From contig NZ_MWQE01000008.1 of the NCBI RefSeq assembly GCF_002210285.1, positions 62,001 through 126,000 on the forward strand: a stretch of 64,000 nucleotides of DNA, read 5' to 3'. This stretch comes from Fibrobacter sp. UWR2 (GTDB lineage Bacteria > Fibrobacterota > Fibrobacteria > Fibrobacterales > Fibrobacteraceae). This document shows positions 34,276-49,098 of this stretch, piece by piece. The translations under genes and the position numbers were made by a program. Numbering within the stretch: position 1 is the first letter of the stretch; every line of letters begins with the position of its first letter. Below the pieces are notes generated by a model. That model saw only the letters and a program-made list of their open reading frames with translations, was not told the origin of the DNA and made no database searches.

Positions 34276-34296
34276 TGGGATTATTGTGGTTTGACG

Positions 34297-34323
34297 AGGA
34301 CTCTTGCAAGGGTCCTGTTTTTT
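34297..34323 (+). terminator. Leader hairpin with U run just ahead of the GH9 gene
   Basis: AGGACTCTTG (34297-34306) pairs with CAAGGGTCCT (34307-34316), one G:T pair, followed by TTTTTT (34318-34323). The ribosome site AAAGGAGGCGG starts only about 10 nt later. It may be an attenuator, a second terminator for the CE4 gene, or a 5' stabiliser. Confidence 0.6.
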
Positions 34324-34344
34324 AGGTTATTTAAAGGAGGCGGC

Positions 34345-37300
34345 ATGCCTGCAAAAAGATCTTGGATTACAGTACTGCTCGCGACTGTCGGCATCATGGC
34401 GGCAGAGCAAGAACAGCCCACACCGTACGACCTGATTCGTCCGGTCTGGCCGCTCACGTGGGACAGCACCGTGTTCAACCACTTTGTCCCCGACGCGATT
34501 CCGAAGAACCCGATTCCGAAAAACAGGACTCCCGCCGCATTCGCCCCCAACGAATTTATTCCCGACACGCTGGACCAGGCCTACCTGGACGCCATGAACT
34601 ACCGCATGTCACCCATCCGCGTGAACCAGGCCGGCTATCTCGAAAGTGACGCCGAGAAGCAGTTCTACTACGTCGGATCCGCCACCTCCTTCGAAGTCGT
34701 GGATGCCGATGGCAACTCCCTCTCCCCCGCAGCCACGGGAACCTTTACCTCAAGCGGTAAATCCGCATCGTCTTCCTGGATAATCAATGCAGGGACAAAC
34801 GCGGCCACCAACAACAAGGACCGCTATTCCGTTACCATAAATGGCCCGTCGGGCACGATACAGATAGGCCAACTCGGCAACATGAGCCTGCCCACCAATA
34901 CCCGCCTGCGCATCAAGGTGGGGAACAATATTTCGAGCACCTTCATCATTAGCGAACACGTGTATTCCATGGTGAAGGATGCAGCCCTCAAGTTCTACGG
35001 CATCAACCGTAGCGGTAATGGAGAATCCTGGTTCCACCCGGCAAGCCATACCAAGGATGGCGGCGGACCGGTTACCGAAGGTGCAGATGACGTCCGTGGA
35101 CCGTTTAATGAAGCCCTTGCCGGAACGCTTGAAGGCGGCTACTACGACTGCGGAGACCACCTGAAGGAATCCCAGACCCAGATGTATGCCTTCATGGTGG
35201 CTGCCGTGATGGCAGCAACGAACGCCGACGCCGACGAAGACGTTTATGCCTACAACCAGGGGGAAACGGTCAATACCGACGGTATCCCCGACATGCTCCG
35301 CGAAGCTAAGCACGGCGCCGACTTTGTACTGCGTGCCTACAAGCGCGCCAACGGAGTCGTCGACGACATGGCCCTTTCCGTAGGTAACTTCGGTAGTGAC
35401 CACGGTTGGTGGGGACGCCCCGAGAACCAGGACAAGCTCCCTGTCGACAACTCTGCATCGGCAACCGACCGCGGAGGCCCCGCCTCGCGCACGGTCCGCC
35501 TTGGCGAAGTCGGCTCGAACATCGGTGGCGAAACGGCCGCAGGCCTCGCCATCCTCGGCAAGATGTATGCCGAATACGACAAGCCCTTTGCCGATAGCTG
35601 CCTTATGGTGGCCAAGGCCATGTACAAGTTTGCAAAAGACCTCGCCCAAGGCGCGACCTTCACTCACAACAAGAAGGCTGCCGGCTGGTCTAGCCCGGCC
35701 TATAACGGCAACAACGAATTCTACGACGACATGGCTCTTGCCTCGGTGGCACTCCTCTATGCGACCGGAGAAAAAGAATACGCCGACGACATGATCCGCA
35801 ACAAGAACATGGTGCAGGGCCAGGAATACGCTACCGGCGCCGGATTCTTCGAGGGCGGTTGGTTCGTCACCAACAACAAGGGCTTCTTTAAGGATGTCAA
35901 GAACACCGGATGGGCAAACGCCTATTCCTACGCGCTCTATGCCCTCTACAAGCTAATCCTGCAGGACAAGGACAAGGCGATAAACGAATACGGCCTATCT
36001 GAAACGGAATGGCTGAACGCCATCGAAGACTGTATCGCGGACATGATTGCGAACCTCGGCGACATGAGTGCCTACGGCGAAAGCCCGGAAACATTCGTAT
36101 TCCCCACGGTTCCCAATGTCTGGAAGCAGAGCCAGGTCACATACGACAAGACCTGGTATACCATGCTCACGGACCAGGAATGGATCTACAACAGATACCG
36201 CGCTGGTGACATTTTCGAAGTGCTGGCATACGCCGACGTGGCGGCCGACATCGAAAAGCAGGGTATTTCACTCCCCAACATGGGAACCCCGAACTGGAAA
36301 GCGGCCGAGGCAAAGCAGTTCGCCATCAACCAGCTTAACTACCTGCTTGGCGTGAACCCGTGGGACGTTTCCTTCATCATGGGTGTCGGCGACAAGAACG
36401 ACGCCCACCCGCACCACCGTGCATCCAACCCCGAAGGCAAGAACATGCCGGGCGCAGGCTACAAGTATAAACCGCCTGTAGGCGCCCTCTATGGTGGCGT
36501 TCCCCCTGCACTCAGTGTGACTATGGGTAAGAACGGACAGCGCAACTGGGAATACTACGAAATGTCGGAAGTCTGCATTGACGCAGCCGCAACCCTCGTC
36601 AGTAGCGTAAGCCTCGCCTCCCAGAAGATTGACCGCACCCGCGCACCCGGAATGCAGGTGGAAATCCGCCACGTCAGCATGGATTCCGCCATCGTGATGG
36701 TGAAACTCGATACCCGCGGCACGGCATCCATCAACTACGGCACAGGCGACCAGGCAACGCAAATGAACAAGGTTGCCGTCCCCGACGATTCCTCCTCCGG
36801 CGTGCAGCACGAGTTCATCCTGAGGAACCTGCAGCCGGGCACCACATACTACTTCTTCGCGACCGGTTATAACGCCTACAACCCAGAAAACTACACCATG
36901 AAGTTCATGGTCGACAGCACGCAGACTCCGTTCAGCTTCACGACGCTCAACACCGTCGAAAGCGCCGAAATCAAGAATGTAACCGTGTGTAACGTAAGTG
37001 CCGACAGTGCCGAAATCATGTGGTACACCCCGAACGGCGAATACGAATCCAAGCTCTACTGGGATACCATTCCGCACACGAACCCGAACGAGTATGCCCA
37101 CAACACGGGCGCCGGCAATGCCGACATCTCGGGAATCCCGACCAAGTTCCACTATGTGAAAATCGGCGGACTCAAGGAAAAGACGACATACTACTACGCC
37201 GTCGAGAGCAACGGACAGTACACGAACGTGAACGAAGAAACAGGCGCCATGCTCAAGTTCACCACACCGGTGACGCAGTACGACTTCAGCGTGTACACCT

Positions 37301-40300
37301 ACCAGTACTCTTGGGCAAGCAAACCCGCCATCAACGTGAACATCTTCAACAACGAGGCTAGAGCGTTCGACAGCCTTACCGTGCGCATGTTCATGCGTGG
37401 CGATGACGACCTGTACGATGACGTGGCCATCCGTACCGACATCTGCCAGGCATACGACGAAGCCGGTTTCAACAAGGCCTGCGATGCCACAACGCTAGAA
37501 GTTCTCAACCAAGGGTTCCGCCACGTGCGCCCCGTAAAGATCGAAGACACCTACGATGCCGCTTCTGGCACCTGGCAGTGGTACTTCCCCATCCCGCTCG
37601 GACCGACAGTCATCAAGAGTTCTAGCCGCTTCCGCGTGGACGTGCTGTTCGTAGCACGCATTCGCGCCCAGGGACAGGACGACCCGCTCGACGTGGCCCC
37701 GCAGAACAAGAAGCTTTACTGCAACGCCGACGGTACCTGGTACTGGGTGTCCGACGAGGACAAGATTGGCGCTACCCTCACGGCAAATCCGGGCGACTGG
37801 AGCTGGATGCCGCACAGCAAGGCCAACGGCGACTATGCCGACTACCCGGGCATGCCCTGCATCAGCAAGGATGCCGGCGACCTGGACTTCGGCGTGGCAC
37901 CGGTGAACCCCTACGTGGCCGTGTACCGCAAGGACGAATTCGTCTGGGGCTACAGCCCCTCCAAGAGCGAAATGGAAACGAAGCGCGCGAACTACCAGAT
38001 CGAGGTCACGTTCGACGAGCCCTTCAACGTGTCTAACGGCAGCTATGTGGAAATCGACCAGTCGAGCAGCACCGTGTTCGTGACCGGCCACGCCCATATT
38101 ACCGAAGGCGGCTACATCACGAAGATTTGGGCAAACGGAACGCAGGTTCCGCTGGAACGCATGGATCTTGATGGCGAAATCTACATGATGAGCAATGGCG
38201 TCATCGTTGCGCACTACAACCTCGCTACCGACCTCTGGGATTTGAAGATTCCGGTTAAGATGGGCATCGGAAGCAACAAGGTCGACGTCACAGTATTCGC
38301 AGGGCCTGACCCCGATTGTGCTGCCTGTACCGAAAACGGAGGCTGTGCTTTCGTAAACCGTTCGTACTTCGTGCAGTTCACCAAGGGCGACGCTACCGCA
38401 TCGGCCCTCACCATCAAGGATAGGGACGGCAACCCGGTGGCAAGCCCGGCCGACCCGGCGAACACGCAGTTCTACATCTACCTGACCGACAAGGACAAGG
38501 CAAAGTACAACCAAACTATCGAAGTGCTCGTCGTGAACAACAAGAAGGGCGATACCCTCAAGGTCGCCATGGAACCCGTTGCCGACAACCCTGGCATGTT
38601 CCAGAGCAAGACCTCCATCGCCGCACTTGAAGTTCCGAAGAACAACCGAGGGTCTGGCCAGATTTCGTTCTTTGCGGGCGATACCATCCAGGTCATCTAT
38701 ATCGACCCCGAAGACGAAGAAGATGTCTCGAAGCAGTCGTTCTACGCAGAATCCACGTACCCGGCGCCCAAACAGGTGCTTGCCCAGGACAGCGACTGCG
38801 ACAACGTCGCCGACAAGTTGACCATCACCTTCTCCAATGCCTTCGACGAGAACTACGCGCTGGACAGCGTCCGCGTGTTTATCGAAGGCATGAGCGACTC
38901 GGTGACACTTTCTGTGCCCCAGCCGATACAGGGCCTAAACGAGATTACGATACCGCTCACAGGCGTAAACGTACCTGAAACGGCAGCACCCAGCGGAACC
39001 GCAACCGTATTCCTTGTCACGAAGGGGCAGATTTCCCGCGAAGTGGTGAAGATTACCGACGGTATCGCGCCACAGCTCCTGAGCGTAACGATTCTCGAGA
39101 ATCCGGAACCGCGCTCCACCGAAGATACGCTGATGATCGCCTTCACCGAGCCTGTCATGTTACCCTCCCTGGGAGCATGGCCCCTCTCTATCGAAGGAGT
39201 CTCCGGCGACCACATCTCCGTGTCGGGCAAGGCAACCACAAACAACGGCGGCAAGAGTTGGCTGTTCGTGGTGACCGGGAACGACAACGGGAGCTACATC
39301 CCTGTTGGCGGAATCGCAAGCATCAAGAGCGGCATGAACATCACGGACGAAGCCCTGAACGCGCTCGACCCGGCATCGCCCTGCGCACAGGGCGTGAAGA
39401 TTGCAGAAACCCCGAAGCCCGTGCCCATCACGCTTGCCGAAATCCGCGACAACGAGGGTGACGGTTTCGCTGACGAAATCTACCTGAAGTTCGAAAAGAA
39501 GCTACGCCCGCAGGACATGCTCGACAGTTTCGTCGTGGAATGGGGCATGAAGAACATCACCAAGAGTTTCCTCCCTGCCGACTGGAACCACACCATGGAA
39601 TTCGGGGAACACTGGCAGCACAATCAGCAGCTGGATACCCTCACCGGTGTCGTCACCGACGATTCCACCCTGGTGCAAGATACGATTTCCATCATTACGA
39701 TTCCGCTCACGACTGCAAACGGATTCCCGTTCGGCACGACAAGCGGTTCGTACGACGGCTACGGTCACGTGACACCGAGACTCGGACCCGCAGGCGGATT
39801 CTTCGACAAGTTCTACTTCGTAGTCGACAAGTGCCCGCCCGTCATTATCAAGGCGACGAAGTCCACATCGAATTCCTACGAGTTCCTCGAAGCCACCATG
39901 TCTGAGCCTCTCCAGACTATCGACAATTCCTCTCTCGAATACATCGAGCGCAAGCGCGGCTCGCAGGAAGGCATATACCTGAAGCCCAAGTCCGTATCGA
40001 CCCGAAACGACGTGAAGGAATTCTACGGCTACTCCGACGAATCCGAAGGCGCCGTACGCGTAGGCGACTACATCAGGCTCGTGCCGCTCCCGGCACTTTC
40101 CCGCTACAAGGACAAGGCTGGCAACTACCCCACCGAACAGAACCCGTGGGTAATTGTCGGCGGTGCTTCCGCAGAAAAGACGAAGTTCAACGTGGTTCTC
40201 GTGCACAACGTGACGAAGCCTTCCGCCGACGTCCCCTATACGGGCGCTCCGGCCAGCGCAGGCGAAGTATTCCGTGCAACAATCATCAAGACTGGCGGCA

Positions 40301-40806
40301 ACGAGGCCCTCATGACTCTCAAGGACGGCGTCCTTTCTGCAACGGGAATCGTCCTGGACACGAACCTCTACAAGCATGCCGGCCCGCAGTTCATTGTTGA
40401 AATCACGATGCCTTCGGCCCTGCAGACCAACGATCTCGGCCAGCCGCTCTTCGATTTCGACATCAAGTTCTCGGTCGATGTCTACGACAACCTCGGGCAG
40501 TTCATTACCAAGCAGAACGTACGCCTGAACATGAACGACATCGGTTACGACATGATCTCAGAAGATGGCGTGTTGCGCGTGAATATGGAATGGATGGCAC
40601 CCGATGGTGCGCCCACGACAAAGACCGGCCGCAAGCTCGGCACAGGCGCATACATTGCGAAATTCGACTTCCTCTCCAAGGCCACCTACACCGCAGAGTC
40701 TACTCCGGTACAGGGAGAAAGTTCGAACTACAAGAAGGGCGATATCATCAAGACCACGGACAACACGACGAAGACTTTCGGATTCAAGCGCGCCAAGCGT
40801 AAGTAA
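34345..40806 (+). CDS. Giant modular GH9 cellulase (first of two)
   Basis: About 2153 residues from the ATG at 34345, chosen for AAAGGAGG upstream. After a signal peptide (ending IMAA) come a CelD_N-like Ig domain (from PIRVNQAGYL, about 90-190), a GH9 catalytic domain (about 195-760) with GGYYDCGDH (catalytic base Asp271, Asp268 nearby), NPWDVSFIMG, HPHHR (688-692) and SEVCID with acid Glu742, then two FN3-like domains (about 771-870, 873-980), a possible CBM-like domain, and a long set of Ig-like modules with SbsA-type strands (LMIAFTEPVML) and DxDxD-type motifs at about 1481 and 1702. The end (GRKLGTGAYIAK about 2097-2108, KTFGFKRAKRK) matches the next protein and may anchor or sort it. 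Secreted, cellulose-degrading. Confidence 0.92.
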   Translation: MPAKRSWITVLLATVGIMAAEQEQPTPYDLIRPVWPLTWDSTVFNHFVPDAIPKNPIPKNRTPAAFAPNEFIPDTLDQAYLDAMNYRMSPIRVNQAGYLESDAEKQFYYVGSATSFEVVDADGNSLSPAATGTFTSSGKSASSSWIINAGTNAATNNKDRYSVTINGPSGTIQIGQLGNMSLPTNTRLRIKVGNNISSTFIISEHVYSMVKDAALKFYGINRSGNGESWFHPASHTKDGGGPVTEGADDVRGPFNEALAGTLEGGYYDCGDHLKESQTQMYAFMVAAVMAATNADADEDVYAYNQGETVNTDGIPDMLREAKHGADFVLRAYKRANGVVDDMALSVGNFGSDHGWWGRPENQDKLPVDNSASATDRGGPASRTVRLGEVGSNIGGETAAGLAILGKMYAEYDKPFADSCLMVAKAMYKFAKDLAQGATFTHNKKAAGWSSPAYNGNNEFYDDMALASVALLYATGEKEYADDMIRNKNMVQGQEYATGAGFFEGGWFVTNNKGFFKDVKNTGWANAYSYALYALYKLILQDKDKAINEYGLSETEWLNAIEDCIADMIANLGDMSAYGESPETFVFPTVPNVWKQSQVTYDKTWYTMLTDQEWIYNRYRAGDIFEVLAYADVAADIEKQGISLPNMGTPNWKAAEAKQFAINQLNYLLGVNPWDVSFIMGVGDKNDAHPHHRASNPEGKNMPGAGYKYKPPVGALYGGVPPALSVTMGKNGQRNWEYYEMSEVCIDAAATLVSSVSLASQKIDRTRAPGMQVEIRHVSMDSAIVMVKLDTRGTASINYGTGDQATQMNKVAVPDDSSSGVQHEFILRNLQPGTTYYFFATGYNAYNPENYTMKFMVDSTQTPFSFTTLNTVESAEIKNVTVCNVSADSAEIMWYTPNGEYESKLYWDTIPHTNPNEYAHNTGAGNADISGIPTKFHYVKIGGLKEKTTYYYAVESNGQYTNVNEETGAMLKFTTPVTQYDFSVYTYQYSWASKPAINVNIFNNEARAFDSLTVRMFMRGDDDLYDDVAIRTDICQAYDEAGFNKACDATTLEVLNQGFRHVRPVKIEDTYDAASGTWQWYFPIPLGPTVIKSSSRFRVDVLFVARIRAQGQDDPLDVAPQNKKLYCNADGTWYWVSDEDKIGATLTANPGDWSWMPHSKANGDYADYPGMPCISKDAGDLDFGVAPVNPYVAVYRKDEFVWGYSPSKSEMETKRANYQIEVTFDEPFNVSNGSYVEIDQSSSTVFVTGHAHITEGGYITKIWANGTQVPLERMDLDGEIYMMSNGVIVAHYNLATDLWDLKIPVKMGIGSNKVDVTVFAGPDPDCAACTENGGCAFVNRSYFVQFTKGDATASALTIKDRDGNPVASPADPANTQFYIYLTDKDKAKYNQTIEVLVVNNKKGDTLKVAMEPVADNPGMFQSKTSIAALEVPKNNRGSGQISFFAGDTIQVIYIDPEDEEDVSKQSFYAESTYPAPKQVLAQDSDCDNVADKLTITFSNAFDENYALDSVRVFIEGMSDSVTLSVPQPIQGLNEITIPLTGVNVPETAAPSGTATVFLVTKGQISREVVKITDGIAPQLLSVTILENPEPRSTEDTLMIAFTEPVMLPSLGAWPLSIEGVSGDHISVSGKATTNNGGKSWLFVVTGNDNGSYIPVGGIASIKSGMNITDEALNALDPASPCAQGVKIAETPKPVPITLAEIRDNEGDGFADEIYLKFEKKLRPQDMLDSFVVEWGMKNITKSFLPADWNHTMEFGEHWQHNQQLDTLTGVVTDDSTLVQDTISIITIPLTTANGFPFGTTSGSYDGYGHVTPRLGPAGGFFDKFYFVVDKCPPVIIKATKSTSNSYEFLEATMSEPLQTIDNSSLEYIERKRGSQEGIYLKPKSVSTRNDVKEFYGYSDESEGAVRVGDYIRLVPLPALSRYKDKAGNYPTEQNPWVIVGGASAEKTKFNVVLVHNVTKPSADVPYTGAPASAGEVFRATIIKTGGNEALMTLKDGVLSATGIVLDTNLYKHAGPQFIVEITMPSALQTNDLGQPLFDFDIKFSVDVYDNLGQFITKQNVRLNMNDIGYDMISEDGVLRVNMEWMAPDGAPTTKTGRKLGTGAYIAKFDFLSKATYTAESTPVQGESSNYKKGDIIKTTDNTTKTFGFKRAKRK

Positions 40807-40833: not shown

Positions 40834-43800
40834 ATGAAAATGACGTACTTGAAAAAAATTCTTTTGGCAGCATTTGTCCTGGGCGACATCCTCGCCGTCC
40901 AGGCGATGGCGGAGTTACCCAATATCGACCGTACCGACAAGGTTCACGAACGCAGGTACCTCGACTCGTTGAACGTCTACAACCGTCGACCGATTCGAGT
41001 AAACCAATCCGGTTTCAGGCCACAAGACAACAAGTACGCCTACGTGGCGGACCCCTCGGCACAAACGTTCAAGGTCGTTGACGCGAATACAAAAAAAGAC
41101 GTAATTTCCGCAAAAAATCTCAACTTAGTCGACGCCAATGCGCCAAAGCCCAACTTTTGGGTGGCGGGAGTCCTTAAAGCGGGAAACGACAACACCTTGT
41201 ATTCTTTCAGCCTGGCAGACTCCGCAACCGCTGTCGCAGGCACCGAGGCCCTATACAAAGCAGATTTTAGCGAACTGGCGACCATAGGCGAATACTTTGT
41301 GGTTTGCGGAGGAGACACCTCCGCCACATTCCACGTTCACCCGTCTATTTTCAACTCGATTTTGGAATACTCCCTGCAATTCTTTGGCTCACAACGCTGC
41401 GGAAATACAAAATCACACACACATGCCGCCTGCCACATGAAGGACGGCTCTAAAATAGGCCACGACCTTACCGGTGGCTGGCACGACTGCGGAGACCACT
41501 TTAAAGTTTCAGAGACCCTGGGCTTTGCAGCCTACGTTTTGATTACCACATACCTGGTTTACCAAGACAAGGCAGAGGACCGCTACGGCAACTCCTACGC
41601 CGACACAGCCATCACGGACGGCATCCCTGACCTGCTTTACGAAGCCAAGATTGGCGCAGACTTTATCTTCAAATTGTACAAGGCGTCTAAAGCAGACGGG
41701 TTGATTGCCAGGGGCGACATGTACCACTCGGTTGGCGTAGACCAGGTGGACCATGAATACTGGGACGTGCCCGAAAAGCAGGATGCCCAGCCCCATTCCA
41801 AGGGAGGGCCCGACCGCGATGTAGCAGACTCTGCCGGCAACGTTTCGGGCATGTATGCCGCTGTCCTCGCCGAAGTGGCTGCCGCCTGGTTTGTTTTTGA
41901 CCCGGTTTATGCAGACTCCCTTTTGGAAGCGGCAAAAGACATCTACGCAAATGTGGTCAAAAAATCCTACCGAAATATAACCGGCAATTTGAAGGGGTTC
42001 TATACCGGAAGCTCCAACATAACCAACAGAACCGACAATGCGGCCGCAGCCGCCTTGGCGCTTTGGTACGCCACCGCCGACCCCACCTACCAAAACGACC
42101 TGTACAAAGATTTGACAATCAACGACAATTCCACCAATTACGGTTACAACAACGAGCCCGACGACGCAGGTCCCTACTTCAAGGGCGGCTACCTTGGCCT
42201 CACAAGCGGATTTTACCCTGGCGGCTGGATGACGGACTACGAAAACGTCCACGCCCACGTTTTGTTCTCTTTTGTCAAGCTCATTTTGAAGGACCAGGAG
42301 ACCGCGGCTAGTTACGGCGTTGGAGAACTGGAAAGGGATACATTAATACAGCGGTCCACCAACAGCCTCCGTCGTTTGACCGACGATGGTTCCGAGGGCA
42401 CTCCGCGATTTACAAACCGTTTCGGATCGGTCAAGGCGGTCCCTCCTTACAACCTGATATGGACCAGCAGCGGCTGGGGATTGAACCGCTACAACCTGGG
42501 CGCGGCCAACGCCATCTTTATGCTTTCTGAAATCACCACCGGTGAAGAAAAGGAAGTATACAAGCAGCTTGCCCTCGACAACATTTATTATAGCCTTGGC
42601 GCGAACCCGTGGGATGTTTCATTCTTGATGGGTGCCGGCGACAAAAACTTGAACCACCCGCACAACCGTGCTGCCAACCCCGACGGATACAATGCTGGCG
42701 GCATGCCCTATAAGTACACCTGCCCACTGGGCGCCCTGATGGGCGGCACCTTCCCCGACGCCGTATTGCAAGATTTTTGGGAATTTTGGACAGTTACCGA
42801 AACGTGCATTGACTTTTCGGCACAGCTTTTGATCCCAGCCCAAAGCCTAGCAGAGACGCTGCCCGAAGATGCCGAAGGGCCCCTGTACAGCAATGTTGCC
42901 GGAGTTCCCATTTCTAATACCTCGGCCACCATTAGCTGGGACGTCAACGAAGTCGCCCTCACCACGGTGTTCTACAACACCACACCCGACGCTAGTACTG
43001 CAAAATCCGTCACGCAGACCACGGCCAGCAAGGGCGGCGCATTGACCATTGACGGGCTCGAGCCCAACCAAACCTATTACTTCTTCTTGGAGGGCATGGA
43101 CGTCAAGCACAACATTGGCACCGACGACAATCACGGTCAATGGTACCAGTTCACCATGACCCCGCTCAACACCACCATCAGCGGCGTCACCATTTGCCAG
43201 GTAGACAACCGCAGCGCCAAGATTTACTGGTGGAGCAGCGACCGGCTGAACGGAGTCGTGAACTACGGGACCAGCAGTTCGAATCTTACCGAATCGCAAC
43301 CCGCCGAAGGCGGCGCAGTCCTTTTCCACGAAGTCCTGCTTACAAACTTGAGCGCAGGCACCACCTACTACTTTAGCGTATCCTCGGGAGCAACCACAGA
43401 CAATAACGGTGGAAACTACTACAGCTTTACCACGGAACAATACTCCACCTACGCCAACTTGGACATTTACATAAAGCCCACTTCTTACCAAGCAGAATGT
43501 ACCGATTGGAAGGACTGCCACGAATTCATTGTTTCTATCGCCAACAACGACACGATGGCGTTCCACGATTTCGAGATTCGCCTCTACCTTGGCAAGAGTT
43601 CAACCTTCCAACCCATTTCGTGGACACCCCTCACCCAAAACTGGGGCGGCGAAGGAACGATGACCTCAATAAAAAGCATCTCATTCGGGTCGCCCACCTT
43701 GGAAAAAGACCAGTATTACATACCCATTACCATAGGGGACACCCTAAAGGTCTCTGGGCAAATGCTGTTCCAACTCAAGTTTATGACAGGAACCTTCAAG

Positions 43801-46656
43801 GACTTTGCCGAAGGATGGTCCCTTGTTGCGCATAATGCCGAGGACGACCCGGAGCAATTTGAAGGTATTGACCTTACCCAGGCCCCGTACTTCAGCAATT
43901 CCGAGACAACCCTAATTGAAGTCAACTCAAAGGGCGAAAGGGTCCCCGCCTTTACAAGAGACCCGTATGTAGTGGTTTACTACCACGGCAAGCACATTTA
44001 CGGCTATGGCCCTGACTACACGCCCGAAAACGGCCCGCAAATGCCGCGTACAGTGAGCCTCAACTTTACAAGCCCATTTGTAACACCGCACAGTTCATTA
44101 GAAACTACCGACAGCAACATAGCCTATATCGGCGGCAGCCGTGTTACGCCGACAGGATTCCTAGATGACTTTGAAATGAACGCACTGTCGATTATTGATT
44201 TCGTTGAATTCCCCTCGGCGCCTCGCAAAGACTCCCTCTCGTTCAACTTCCCTTACAAGGCGCAATACGGCAACAACTACTACGAATGGGTCAGCTGGCA
44301 CAACCACGCCGCAAACATGAGTTCCACAAACAAGTACGACTGCGCCTGTGCCGTGATCCGCACCAACGTCGAGGTTGACACCATCACCACGCCACCGGAA
44401 ATCCGCCTGTTGCAGTTCACGACAGACACCGTTCGCGCCTATACCGGAAAGATGGTCGAAGTTCATCTACAGTTGCTCGACAGCAACTTCGAACTTCTCA
44501 AGACCGACCCGTTCAGCGTCTTGCTCACCTCGGAATCCGGTTTTGCCAAGTTCTACACGTCGGCAACATCGACTACCCCGGTCGAAAAGATTGACATTAT
44601 CAACGGTACGGCCGTGTTCTACCTCCGTTCGGACAAGGCGACGACAACCATTCTCAAGGCTATCGGCAACAACACCTCCAAGGTAAACTACCTGCCGGCA
44701 ATCGCGACGCTCATCATCGAGGATTTGCCTCCCTGGCCGATTATCGACAACGCCATCATGGTGGACAACAACTGCGACGACATTCCGGATGCGTTCCAGA
44801 TAACTCTTTCCAACGAATACATCGCGGCAGAGAACCAGTCGTTCAACTCCATCAAGTTCGTATACGAAGGCGATACGCTTACAAGCGATTCCGTCATCTC
44901 GCTTAACGAACGCGACCTGGTTGTTGCGGCAAAGATCCCGAACGCGACCATGAATACCGCACCCTCCGGTGCGATTACGCTCATAAGCAACACCAATGCC
45001 GGGAAGAAGGAAGCGTCCGACTTCTACAAGGACGGCATCTCACCCGACCTGATATCGGTATCCGTACTGGAACGCCAGTCCGACGCGACAAGCGATTTCG
45101 TCTACATCCAGTTCAGCGAACCTGTCAAGGAGCCCTCGCCCGAATGGCCGCTCCGCATCAATTCGGCCGATATTGCAGCCCACGTGAAGGGAGTCAAGCT
45201 CTACAACGAAGCACTCAATATCTGGGAATTCGAAATCGACTTCGACGCAGGCGGAGGCTCGCTGGTGCAGGAGGGCATGAAGGCTCAGCTTTCACCCACG
45301 GCAACCATCAAGGACCTCGCAGGCAACGGCATCGGCAACTGCACTCCGAAAACCGTGGATGTGCTCCTGAAGATCCGTCCGATACCCATGACCTACGCAA
45401 GCATCGCCGACAAGGACGAAGACGGCCTTGCCGAACATATCGAAATCAAGTTCACGAAGGCAGTCGATGCCAAGCACTATCCGGACTCCATCTCGATTAT
45501 CTTCGGTAGCGCCTTCCCCGAAACACTTTTCGTACGCAAGGCCGAAATCAGACTGAGCGCCGACCAGATGTCCACTTCGTTCGACCTGCCGACACCTTTC
45601 GCCCTCGGCAACACTAACGGCAACTACGAAGGCACCCTGGAAGGCAGGGACCTTATAGGCGCAGGGCTTGTTACCGAGCACCTGGGCAGCGGTGCCGCCT
45701 ACGAGACCGAGTCTTCGATTGCAGAAGACCTCGCAGGCCCCGTATTCACTTCAGCAAGCCTCTCGTCATCGGGCAACCTCGAAGTCCTGATTATCCACGT
45801 AAGCGAACCGCTCATCATCGCAGATTCAGCGGCGATCCTCTATGTGCGCGAACGTTCTAGCATAGGCGTGCACAAGATCGACCTCACCGGATGGAACTTC
45901 TCGAACCAGTCCCTGACTATCAACGCGGTATACAAGCCCGAGGCCGAAATTGCCGTCATGGAAGGCGACCGCATCAACCTCGCCCCGAAGACAGCCAGCG
46001 CATTTACGGACCTGAGCAACAACATGCCGGCAGATGACAACCCGAAGGTGACCATCGGCGGCGAGGGCAATCCGAAGATCAAGTTCGATATCCATCTGCA
46101 AAAGCCGATTACGACCGTATCGTCCGCAGACCCCTCGCTTATCCCGAGCAACAAGACGATCAACCTTTACGTGGTTAACCCGAGCAACCACAAGCTCGAC
46201 CGTATCGAAAAGGGCGCTGTCGTGCAAACCGGAATCGATACCACCGTAACGCCTCTTAACGGCGTCGTGTGGACAATGGACCTGACCGTCCCGCGCGGAG
46301 GCTCCCTGAACCAGCCCGCCTACTGGAGGAGCCTGAAGGTCAAGTACAGCCTGCCCATCTACACGAACATGGGCAGCTTCGTGAACCGCCTCTCCGGCAC
46401 GTTCACCGTCGATTCCGACGTGTACTACTCGACGAACAACAAGGTCACCTTCTTCGTGGAATGGGTAAACGCGCCCAAGGGCGGTGTACGCTCGCAACAG
46501 GGCCGAGAAGTCGGTACCGGCGCCTATATCTACAAGGCAGAACTGAACTGCAAGTTCCTACCCAACGCCGACCTCGATGCAAAAACAAAGAAGCGCTTCG
46601 AGTCGTCAAATTCCTACGACAAGACCGAAACCTTCGGTATTCGCCGTTTAAAATAG
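40834..46656 (+). CDS. Giant modular GH9 cellulase (second), chimeric codon usage
   Basis: This 1940-residue protein follows after 27 nt, with AGGTGG as ribosome site, and has the same order of modules: signal peptide, CelD_N-like Ig (PIRVNQSGFR), GH9 domain with GGWHDCGDH (Asp218, Asp221), NPWDVSFLMG, HPHNR (608-612) and TETCID with acid Glu656, two FN3-like domains (about 684-770, 780-870), a CBM-like stretch, then Ig-like modules with FSEPVKEPS and DNNCDD (about 1311) and the shared end (GREVGTGAYIYK, TFGIRRLK). Codon usage in the first 1100 codons differs sharply from the rest and from the neighbours (see findings), suggesting that the catalytic part was acquired or swapped. Confidence 0.92.
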   Translation: MKMTYLKKILLAAFVLGDILAVQAMAELPNIDRTDKVHERRYLDSLNVYNRRPIRVNQSGFRPQDNKYAYVADPSAQTFKVVDANTKKDVISAKNLNLVDANAPKPNFWVAGVLKAGNDNTLYSFSLADSATAVAGTEALYKADFSELATIGEYFVVCGGDTSATFHVHPSIFNSILEYSLQFFGSQRCGNTKSHTHAACHMKDGSKIGHDLTGGWHDCGDHFKVSETLGFAAYVLITTYLVYQDKAEDRYGNSYADTAITDGIPDLLYEAKIGADFIFKLYKASKADGLIARGDMYHSVGVDQVDHEYWDVPEKQDAQPHSKGGPDRDVADSAGNVSGMYAAVLAEVAAAWFVFDPVYADSLLEAAKDIYANVVKKSYRNITGNLKGFYTGSSNITNRTDNAAAAALALWYATADPTYQNDLYKDLTINDNSTNYGYNNEPDDAGPYFKGGYLGLTSGFYPGGWMTDYENVHAHVLFSFVKLILKDQETAASYGVGELERDTLIQRSTNSLRRLTDDGSEGTPRFTNRFGSVKAVPPYNLIWTSSGWGLNRYNLGAANAIFMLSEITTGEEKEVYKQLALDNIYYSLGANPWDVSFLMGAGDKNLNHPHNRAANPDGYNAGGMPYKYTCPLGALMGGTFPDAVLQDFWEFWTVTETCIDFSAQLLIPAQSLAETLPEDAEGPLYSNVAGVPISNTSATISWDVNEVALTTVFYNTTPDASTAKSVTQTTASKGGALTIDGLEPNQTYYFFLEGMDVKHNIGTDDNHGQWYQFTMTPLNTTISGVTICQVDNRSAKIYWWSSDRLNGVVNYGTSSSNLTESQPAEGGAVLFHEVLLTNLSAGTTYYFSVSSGATTDNNGGNYYSFTTEQYSTYANLDIYIKPTSYQAECTDWKDCHEFIVSIANNDTMAFHDFEIRLYLGKSSTFQPISWTPLTQNWGGEGTMTSIKSISFGSPTLEKDQYYIPITIGDTLKVSGQMLFQLKFMTGTFKDFAEGWSLVAHNAEDDPEQFEGIDLTQAPYFSNSETTLIEVNSKGERVPAFTRDPYVVVYYHGKHIYGYGPDYTPENGPQMPRTVSLNFTSPFVTPHSSLETTDSNIAYIGGSRVTPTGFLDDFEMNALSIIDFVEFPSAPRKDSLSFNFPYKAQYGNNYYEWVSWHNHAANMSSTNKYDCACAVIRTNVEVDTITTPPEIRLLQFTTDTVRAYTGKMVEVHLQLLDSNFELLKTDPFSVLLTSESGFAKFYTSATSTTPVEKIDIINGTAVFYLRSDKATTTILKAIGNNTSKVNYLPAIATLIIEDLPPWPIIDNAIMVDNNCDDIPDAFQITLSNEYIAAENQSFNSIKFVYEGDTLTSDSVISLNERDLVVAAKIPNATMNTAPSGAITLISNTNAGKKEASDFYKDGISPDLISVSVLERQSDATSDFVYIQFSEPVKEPSPEWPLRINSADIAAHVKGVKLYNEALNIWEFEIDFDAGGGSLVQEGMKAQLSPTATIKDLAGNGIGNCTPKTVDVLLKIRPIPMTYASIADKDEDGLAEHIEIKFTKAVDAKHYPDSISIIFGSAFPETLFVRKAEIRLSADQMSTSFDLPTPFALGNTNGNYEGTLEGRDLIGAGLVTEHLGSGAAYETESSIAEDLAGPVFTSASLSSSGNLEVLIIHVSEPLIIADSAAILYVRERSSIGVHKIDLTGWNFSNQSLTINAVYKPEAEIAVMEGDRINLAPKTASAFTDLSNNMPADDNPKVTIGGEGNPKIKFDIHLQKPITTVSSADPSLIPSNKTINLYVVNPSNHKLDRIEKGAVVQTGIDTTVTPLNGVVWTMDLTVPRGGSLNQPAYWRSLKVKYSLPIYTNMGSFVNRLSGTFTVDSDVYYSTNNKVTFFVEWVNAPKGGVRSQQGREVGTGAYIYKAELNCKFLPNADLDAKTKKRFESSNSYDKTETFGIRRLK

Positions 46657-46734: not shown

Positions 46735-49098
46735 ATGCAAGAGATTCTGTTTTCCGACTCGCCTATCGCCACGGGGCTTTCCGCCGTAGCGCTTATACTC
46801 ACGTTCCTGCTTCCCTATATCCTGGGCCAGAAAACGGGACTAAGGCAGTTTCCCAAGGCCATATACCAGCTGATGCTCATATGCACCTACTGGAATACAC
46901 TCAGCCTTGTCGGCAGTCTATTCTTCAGCGGGCCGCATTTCGGTCTTGCCGCAAAGATCATCTTCGGTTTGCAGGCTATCGCCTGGATCCAGGCTGGCAA
47001 CACCATCTACCATATTGCCGAACATGCCCTCCATTTCAGGCGATTCAACTTCTGGAGGCTCCTGAACGCCATAGGCGTAGCAAACGTCATCGCCGTCACC
47101 GTCATCTTCTGCGTAAACGAACCGTTTTTCACCGAATTCAAGATTCTCGGTTTCATGCCGCTGCACGACCATGCATACTTCAAGATTTATTCCATGATGT
47201 TCTTCCTGTACGTGTTCCCCGAGCTCCTGCTTACCATATACAAGCTGATGCGCAACACGCTCCAGACCGGCGACAAGGATTCGGCGCAGATCAACTTCTA
47301 CATGGCCGGCAGCTTTATATTCTTCATCGCTCTTTCGTTCGTATTCGACTTCATGATCCCTGTCGCAAGTGGATTCAACGTCAACGGAAGACACCCGATA
47401 TTCCTGCAATGGCACCAATACTCATGCATATTCCTCTCGGTTCTCTGCGGGCAGTACTTCACCTCGATTTCGTTCAAGAACAAGAGTTCCCACTGGCTCA
47501 TGAAGAGCCTGTTCAACCAGCTCGGCGACTGCGTTTTCGCCATCCAGGCCGACGGCATCATCAGCTACTGCAACCCCGCAGCCCAGCTCCTGTTCCGCAA
47601 GACCGACAACGAAATGAAGATGTACCACATTCAGGACTTCATTCCCAGCCTGAAACTGGATAACGAAGTCGTGACAGAAAGCGTGAAGGTTCAGGTCAAC
47701 GACGAACTACATTCCTTCAGTCTCTCGCTGTACAAGTACCGTACCACGCTTTCTACATACATGTGGCTTTTGCTCCTGAGCGACCAGACGAACTCGCTTT
47801 TCTACCAGCAGCGCATCAAGACGCTCAACCGACAGTTCGCCGACTACAAGAAGGACCTCATCCGCTACCAGGACCGTCTCGACAGCTCCGAAAAGAAATT
47901 CAAGGAGCAGAGCAGTTTCAGTTCCACGCTCATCAACGCGCTCCCCTTCCAGTTTTGGTCCAAGAACGAGCAGGGCGTCTACACCACACAGAACATCATG
48001 GACATCAAGAGCCGCGGCAACCTTATCCAAACGACGGACTCCACGGAATCCATATCGGACAGGGAACTGCAGGCGCGCAACAGTGGGCTATCGAGCATAT
48101 TCACCACGTACGAAAACGACCGTCACGAAAAAATTTCCGAAGACGAAGCGAACAACCTGATCTTCAACAACAAGGCCGTATTCATTTACAACGAGCAGTT
48201 CATCCCGATTATATCGGAACAGAAACCATACAAGATTATCGGACTCAAGCAGGACATCACCGAACAGAAGCGTCTCGAAAGGGAACGCGACCTCCTGAGC
48301 GAACAGAAACGAATCCATTCGCGACTCGAAGACCTGGGCACGATGCTCGGCGGTTTCGCACACGACTACAAGAACAGTATCGGAGCCCAGATTGGGTTCT
48401 GCGAGCTGGCTCGTGAGACCCTCGAGAACTTGCCGACCGACGACATTCCCGAGAAAAAGGCAAAGACCATCGCGAAGGCAGGCGAACTTATCGGCGAAGC
48501 GAACAAGGCGGCGAACAAGGCAAAGGATTCCGTGAACCAGTTGCTAAGTGCCATAAGGAACGAGGCGTCCATCGCACCGAAACCGATGGTGTTCTCGCCA
48601 TTCCTGATTATCGAGGACGTGGTAAAGAAGGTGCAGCTCACCCTCCCGTCGAACATCCACATATCGACCGAGGACATCGACAAGGACCTGAAGATAAAGT
48701 GCCTGCCGGCAGCGCTCGACCGCATATTGAGCAACTTGGCAAACAACGCCATATTCGCCATGAAGGACGACGGCGGAACGCTCACGTTCAAACTGGAGCG
48801 CGAAGAGGTAAAAACGAAAATCGTACAGCCCTTCTCGGACACCATCGAGCCGGGAGTTTATGCGAAATTCACCATCGCCGACACTGGCACGGGAATCGAC
48901 TCCGGGACCCTCGAACGCATCTTTTCGCCGTTCTTTACCACGAAAGCGCCCGGCGAAGGGCTCGGCTTGGGGCTTACTTCAGCCCTCAGGCTCCTAAAAG
49001 ACGGCAATGCGCATTTCACAGTGCACACGACCCTCGGCGAGGGCACGCAATTTAATCTATATTGGGACTTAGCAACCGAAAAAACGGAGGATGCATAA
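46735..49098 (+). CDS. Membrane sensor histidine kinase (NtrB-like core)
   Basis: This 787-residue protein has six or seven hydrophobic segments in residues 10-250, a PAS-like domain (about 258-355, QLGDCVFAIQADGIISYCNPAA), a coiled coil (QRIKTLNRQFADYKKDL), a second PAS-like region (about 395-510) and a kinase core. The H-box is GGFAHDYKNS with His543, the N-box SNLANNAIFAMKDDG, then DTGTGID, FFTTK and GLGLGLTSA. The HDxKN H-box is the NtrB/HisKA type that feeds sigma-54 regulators, as found two genes downstream. TAAGTTTC lies 8 nt before the ATG and may be its promoter. The stop overlaps the next start (TAATG). Confidence 0.88.
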   Translation: MQEILFSDSPIATGLSAVALILTFLLPYILGQKTGLRQFPKAIYQLMLICTYWNTLSLVGSLFFSGPHFGLAAKIIFGLQAIAWIQAGNTIYHIAEHALHFRRFNFWRLLNAIGVANVIAVTVIFCVNEPFFTEFKILGFMPLHDHAYFKIYSMMFFLYVFPELLLTIYKLMRNTLQTGDKDSAQINFYMAGSFIFFIALSFVFDFMIPVASGFNVNGRHPIFLQWHQYSCIFLSVLCGQYFTSISFKNKSSHWLMKSLFNQLGDCVFAIQADGIISYCNPAAQLLFRKTDNEMKMYHIQDFIPSLKLDNEVVTESVKVQVNDELHSFSLSLYKYRTTLSTYMWLLLLSDQTNSLFYQQRIKTLNRQFADYKKDLIRYQDRLDSSEKKFKEQSSFSSTLINALPFQFWSKNEQGVYTTQNIMDIKSRGNLIQTTDSTESISDRELQARNSGLSSIFTTYENDRHEKISEDEANNLIFNNKAVFIYNEQFIPIISEQKPYKIIGLKQDITEQKRLERERDLLSEQKRIHSRLEDLGTMLGGFAHDYKNSIGAQIGFCELARETLENLPTDDIPEKKAKTIAKAGELIGEANKAANKAKDSVNQLLSAIRNEASIAPKPMVFSPFLIIEDVVKKVQLTLPSNIHISTEDIDKDLKIKCLPAALDRILSNLANNAIFAMKDDGGTLTFKLEREEVKTKIVQPFSDTIEPGVYAKFTIADTGTGIDSGTLERIFSPFFTTKAPGEGLGLGLTSALRLLKDGNAHFTVHTTLGEGTQFNLYWDLATEKTEDA

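Follow-up and report, generated by a model that had tools for sequence, protein, structure and literature searches.

Codon-usage break within the second GH9 gene

Does the change in codon usage inside the second of two tandem GH9 cellulase genes of Fibrobacter sp. UWR2 mark a boundary between DNA of different origins and, if so, which part of the gene is foreign? The whole stretch analysed here (64,000 nucleotides; the window) is contig C8:62001–126000, forward strand, of the 3.28-Mb genome, which consists of 20 contigs (completeness, 100%; contamination, 0.07%, from marker genes). The second gene of the pair (40834..46656, + strand; open reading frame, translation, and Pfam) encodes a protein of 1940 residues; full-length orthologues occur across the genus, and its named relatives are nearly all labelled Fibrobacter. 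From the N- to the C-terminus, the protein is composed of a short leader, a CelD_N Ig-like domain (residues 52–96), the GH9 catalytic domain (Glyco_hydro_9, PF00759; residues 174–666; 41353..42831, + strand), FN3-like modules (FN3-like/Pur_ac_phosph_N in Pfam), a module of residues 858–1192, and a long tail. The GH9 domain is recognised by Pfam (E-value, 4e-60; 204.8 bits against a curated cut-off of 27.7), and the closest PDB sequence match of the domain is Cel9M (1ia6). The tail (residues 1190–1940; 44401..46653, + strand) is predicted to be an all-β string of Ig-like units (model pLDDT, 89).

The segment of residues 858–1192 (43405..44409, + strand; model pLDDT, 88) comprises a module with a predicted CBM3-like fold, uncalled at the Pfam cut-off, and the β module that follows it. 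The top matches in a Foldseek search were the CBM3a structures 1nbc, 4jo5, and 4b9f (E-value, 4e-6), and the superposition gave TM-scores, by target, of 0.61–0.64, but with a root-mean-squared deviation of about 6 Å. The Pfam CBM_3 family matched weakly in one of 30 members, and the module of the window protein was below the cut-off. A relative of residues 861–1064 (42% identity) is found in another gene, at G000:C5:66937–67530.

The preliminary description of the locus had proposed, from counts of Lys and Phe codons, an abrupt break near 44.1–44.3 kb between the CBM-like and the Ig-like modules. Its counts were reproduced: at 41101–41700, Lys is encoded by 8 AAA and 5 AAG and Phe by 7 TTT and 5 TTC, and at 45001–45600 by 1 AAA and 14 AAG, and by 0 TTT and 11 TTC, respectively. 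The Lys bias given for the first GH9 gene at 35101–35700 is correct to within one codon (1 AAA and 10 AAG, about 11 having been claimed). Phe in the same segment of the first gene is encoded by 4 TTT and 3 TTC, and is therefore not native-like by the yardstick applied there.

The break is real, as judged by 300 synonymous shuffles in which the protein sequence was held constant. With all synonymous codons, the changepoint was located at nucleotide 44524 (44464–44554 within 2 log units) with a log-likelihood gain of 73.5, as compared with 30.9 ± 4.2 (maximum, 48.9) in the shuffles; with Lys and Phe together, it was located at 44194 (44104–44404), with a gain of 18.5 versus 3.3 ± 1.7. Only its abruptness needs to be qualified: in single families, Lys shifts earlier (about 42.1 kb) than Phe (44.2 kb), and GC3 rises only from 0.66 in part 1 to 0.74 in part 2. 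The fractions of AAG, TTC, and CAG are 0.58, 0.51, and 0.39 in part 1 and 0.92, 0.92, and 0.75 in part 2, so that Gln, unmentioned previously, also shifts. A sample of the window genome gave 0.79, 0.72, and 0.84, respectively; since for Lys and Phe this average is intermediate between part 1 and part 2, these families alone cannot tell which part is foreign. Moreover, the Lys asymmetry is partly generic, since 58 of the 65 orthologues share its sign, with AAG commoner in the tail (mean asymmetry, 0.16; window gene, 0.35). In the overall codon contrast between the parts, the window gene ranks fourth among the 65 orthologues (z, 9.4), and its sisters L039, L046, L054, and L184 show little contrast (z, 0.5, 0.9, 1.4, and −0.8).

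Imported tract and its junctions

A near match to the core came from a search of 80 genomes of the genus with residues 80–860, in which one other Fibrobacter genome, G080, matched at 98% and all others at 74% or less; in the aligned orthologues other than that of G080 (L180), the amino acid identity of the core is 69% at most. The main imported tract (codons 63–1189; 41020..44400, + strand) contains most of CelD_N, the GH9 domain, the FN3-like modules, and the CBM3-like module, and shows 69 differences from L180 over 3381 nucleotides (46 synonymous and 23 non-synonymous codons). Its nucleotide identity to L180 (98.0%) far exceeds that of the tail (64%) and of the flanks (64–70%), as in a mosaic gene formed by interspecies recombination. 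Local identity stays at 96–99% along about codons 63–1189 and then falls to 54–74%, and third-position identity is 95.8% in the tract and 47.7% in the tail. The two genomes are otherwise 83.8% identical in gyrB and about 80% identical, length-weighted, in sampled longer matches.

The comparison with G080 resolves the right junction to a single base, 44400/44401. It lies just outside the range of 44.1–44.3 kb and, as had been proposed, separates the CBM-like from the Ig-like modules. The left end is patchy. Codons 1–22 (40834..40899, + strand), the native signal-peptide segment, diverge from G080 up to codon 22; codons 23–45 (40900..40968, + strand) form a first imported piece, about 96–99% identical to G080 and 72–76% to the sisters; and codons 46–62 (40969..41019, + strand) are a native patch, 69% identical to G080 and 84, 80, and 78% identical to L185, L184, and L054, respectively. 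Over residues 1–80 as a whole, the identity to the sister species L039/L054/L068/L046 is 76–81%. Such an alternation of import, native patch, and import is often seen in recombination tracts. The replacement is in frame and without remains of mobile elements, and the alignments across the junctions contain substitutions only.

Judged by synonymous codons, the G080 codon table suits the core better (27 log units) and the table of the window genome suits the tail better (5 log units). The match of the core to the G080 table is imperfect: the gene of G080 shows a milder contrast of its own between its two parts (z, 4.3), and the CAG fraction of the core (0.36–0.38) is under the average of both genomes, suggesting that G080 may itself be a recipient. 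It is possible that a third donor supplied both the window lineage and G080; no close relative of G080 that would settle the direction of transfer was found. The imported core carries the GH9 catalytic motifs GGWHDCGDHF, NHPHNRAANP, and FWTVTETCIDF, and with the frame intact and these motifs kept, the chimera should be a working enzyme.

Native flanks and conflicting phylogenies

The remainder of the gene has a different ancestry from the core. Residues 1200–1940 are most like those of L039, L046, L054, and L068, as are residues 1–80, and about residues 80–1190 are not; the amino acid identity of the tail to the sister species is 75–78%. Both the tail and the downstream gene (46735..49098, + strand; PAS/histidine-kinase-type ATPase in Pfam), used as a marker of the native flank, group the window with L039, L054, L184, L185, L046, and L068. 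The same clade is obtained with gyrB, in which L039 and L054 are about 94% identical to the window genome and L046/L068 come next. The identity of the downstream gene is 85% to its counterparts in L039/L054/G068, 50% in amino acids to that of G080, and 52% or less to those of genomes outside the clade of the window. Because the tail, the downstream gene, and gyrB give one clade, the tail and the flank are native and the core is not, which bears out the view that the C-terminal part looked native.

Separate phylogenies of the catalytic and C-terminal parts disagree. We used gyrB as the species marker, rpoB being missing in 16 of 30 genomes, and relied on counts of splits, since absolute likelihood differences between these fast trees were very large. 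Among 36 genomes, the tail, the catalytic unit, and the CBM3-like module share 17, 4, and 2 of the 33 splits of the gyrB tree, respectively, and of 20 well-supported gyrB splits, 18 are contradicted by the catalytic tree and 5 by the tail tree. The tail tree also differs significantly from that of gyrB, so the tail is an imperfect species marker. The earlier interpretation that the catalytic part was imported or swapped is thus largely right, given the 98% identity to G080; it has to be amended in that the import starts within the gene, keeps the native signal-peptide segment, and is patchy at its left end. The donor pool is Fibrobacter itself, and the event in the window is one among many in the genus.

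Recurrent exchange across the genus

In 25 of the 44 genome pairs that are close at gyrB, the identity of the catalytic unit is lower than that of the tail, as against 0.4% of 490 distant pairs; among the distant pairs, the catalytic unit is better conserved than the tail (67% versus 48% identity), in 99.6% of cases. L011 and L044, for example, are 99.5% identical in gyrB and 98% in the tail, with a catalytic unit of 79% and a CBM3-like module of 53%, and L020 and L025 have a catalytic unit of 91%, a CBM3-like module of 50%, and a tail of 82%. These values show that the catalytic unit and the CBM3-like module exchange independently, the latter having been swapped on its own in L020/L025 and also in L023/L089. 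Conversely, the catalytic units of L010 and L045 are 87% identical, with a tail of 48% and gyrB of 83%, and GC3 of the L010 core (0.53) is of the lower, L045 type, as compared with 0.78 in the L010 tail.

Reading the trees by clade, without formal reconstruction, we count at least six independent exchanges: in the window; in L039/L046/L068 versus L054/L184/L185; in L010; in L041; in L017; and in L011/L044 or L018/L062. A somewhat speculative extension, which we consider less likely than its alternatives taken together, is that the species of the genus draw their cellulase heads and cellulose-binding modules from a shared pool. At fixed positions in the gene, conserved segments would serve as recombination anchors, and diversifying selection, exerted by the substrate or by predators or phages recognising the enzyme, would shuffle the units between species, while the secretion signal and the surface tail stay native.

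Probable origin of the chimera

The window gene is most likely a chimera formed by homologous recombination between Fibrobacter species, that is, by a recent gene replacement (probability, about 0.9). The orthologue of the G080 lineage, or of a third lineage, would have supplied a fragment with its catalytic core, and this fragment would have taken the place of the resident core, anchored on one side just past the signal peptide and on the other where the CBM3-like module ends. With the signal peptide and Ig-like tail of the resident gene kept, the host could export and retain the imported head by means of its own machinery, and the codon break would mark the change in composition at the right junction. 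The ends of the tract lie within better-conserved stretches (79th–90th percentile for pairwise identity within the gene), and mean pairwise identity falls from 0.71 to 0.54 immediately past the right junction. Together with the preserved frame, the lack of insertion-element remains, and the interleaved left end, these conserved ends fit homologous recombination of imported DNA, presumably of the RecA type. The replacement may have been favoured by selection, for new properties in substrate use or binding.

Uptake of DNA followed by homologous recombination would be the likeliest route. Natural transformation is possible, as the comEC and dprA families are present in both the window genome and G080, and a phage or conjugative route may also be considered. 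In G080, the ComEC family matches in two separate pieces about 33 kb apart (G080:C1:276296–276388 and 309564–310295), with open frames of 408 and 540 residues versus 892 residues in the window genome, as if interrupted by a 33-kb insertion; the present-day competence of G080 is therefore doubtful.

In a long gene inherited vertically, a break of this kind could come from codon-usage selection or from a gradient of composition, and the generic Lys asymmetry described above, as well as a weaker Phe gradient of like kind in the first GH9 gene, speak for some contribution. As the whole cause, such selection is refuted, and we regard it as very improbable: it explains neither an identity of 98% with G080 that is limited to the core nor the contradictory trees, and the four sister genes show hardly any contrast. 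Fast evolution of the core in place, under diversifying selection and without exchange, would agree with the observation that the cores of close pairs are often less alike than their tails. In distant pairs, however, it is the catalytic unit that is more conserved, and the near-identity of the window core to that of G080 and the match of L010 with L045, which exceeds their gyrB identity, refute this idea for the window and for that pair, making it the least probable of all.

An assembly or binning chimera, in either the window genome or G080, deserves mention because several members of the genus are metagenome bins. It is scarcely credible here, given the quality of the window assembly, the position of the tract in frame inside large contigs (161 and 95 kb), the 2% difference between the two genomes, and the interleaved left end. 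Scarcely more can be said for a dedicated switching system, in which a site-specific recombinase or silent copies swap the core; the recurrence of the same exchange units with ends at similar places would be expected from it, but each genome has a single orthologue, the window genome has no silent copy of the core in any of its GH9 genes, and the junctions vary from event to event, are patchy, and lie within ordinary coding sequence. Interspecies homologous recombination thus remains our preferred reading.

Comparison with known mosaic genes

The phenomenon is of a known kind, a mosaic gene formed by interspecies recombination. Mosaic penicillin-binding-protein genes of streptococci and Neisseria contain blocks from congeners inside the gene, between native flanks, and have arisen under antibiotic selection. 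The Fibrobacter gene resembles them in the within-gene replacement of a block from congeners with native flanks; it differs in that the selective force, antibiotics, is known for theirs. The best comparison is the neuraminidase gene nanA of Streptococcus pneumoniae, which, according to the account in PMC4850393 that cites King et al. 2005, became an interspecies mosaic by homologous recombination, with immune pressure being invoked. On that account, both are surface glycosidase genes turned mosaic in the same manner, and the Fibrobacter case differs in the enzyme, in the phylum, in belonging to a gut fibre degrader, and in having a fixed leader and tail that enclose two separately exchanged units, the complete catalytic unit and a CBM3-like module.

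GH9 is conserved in all 40 Fibrobacter genomes studied by Neumann and Suen (PMC6291624), and the window protein is one of these cellulases. Fibrobacter cellulases tended to be without identifiable CBMs in that study, unlike the window protein with its predicted CBM3-like fold. The string 'recombin' is absent from the main text of PMC6291624, and our literature search on recombination in Fibrobacter or its cellulases found nothing specific; in the literature searched, there seems to be no earlier report of a cellulase head and a CBM3-like module being exchanged unit by unit, with the ends of the gene fixed, throughout a genus. In the window gene, a replacement of domains that occurred in nature, in the cellulase of a gut bacterium, is seen to the single base. 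Our data indicate that, within the genus, the catalytic core carried by this gene is largely independent of species descent, and hence that phylogenies of Fibrobacter cellulases are unusable as species history. The natural chimeras are also ready-made experiments on which combinations of head, binding module, and tail are workable.

First GH9 gene and other loci

The first GH9 gene of the tandem pair (34291..40806, + strand) is 87–88% identical in nucleotides to gene 1 of the sister genomes G105 and G068, whose gyrB identity is 92–94%. Its catalytic half shows no sign of a swap in comparison with these two genomes, the G105 copy stopping at a contig end. L039/L046/L068 carry a different paralogue (46–49% identical) directly upstream of gene 2, the tandem GH9 array having been rearranged among closely related species. 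A third GH9 protein (2125 residues; L090:7850–14227, at about 544–550 kb of G000:C1), similar in architecture, has no significant codon break. Codon breaks of at least the same strength (shuffle z values of about 20 and 14) are present in two giant cadherin-repeat genes, L098:5034–10430 and L098:10682–18880 (about 905–919 kb of G000:C1), which may also be mosaic, or in which the break may track the repeats.
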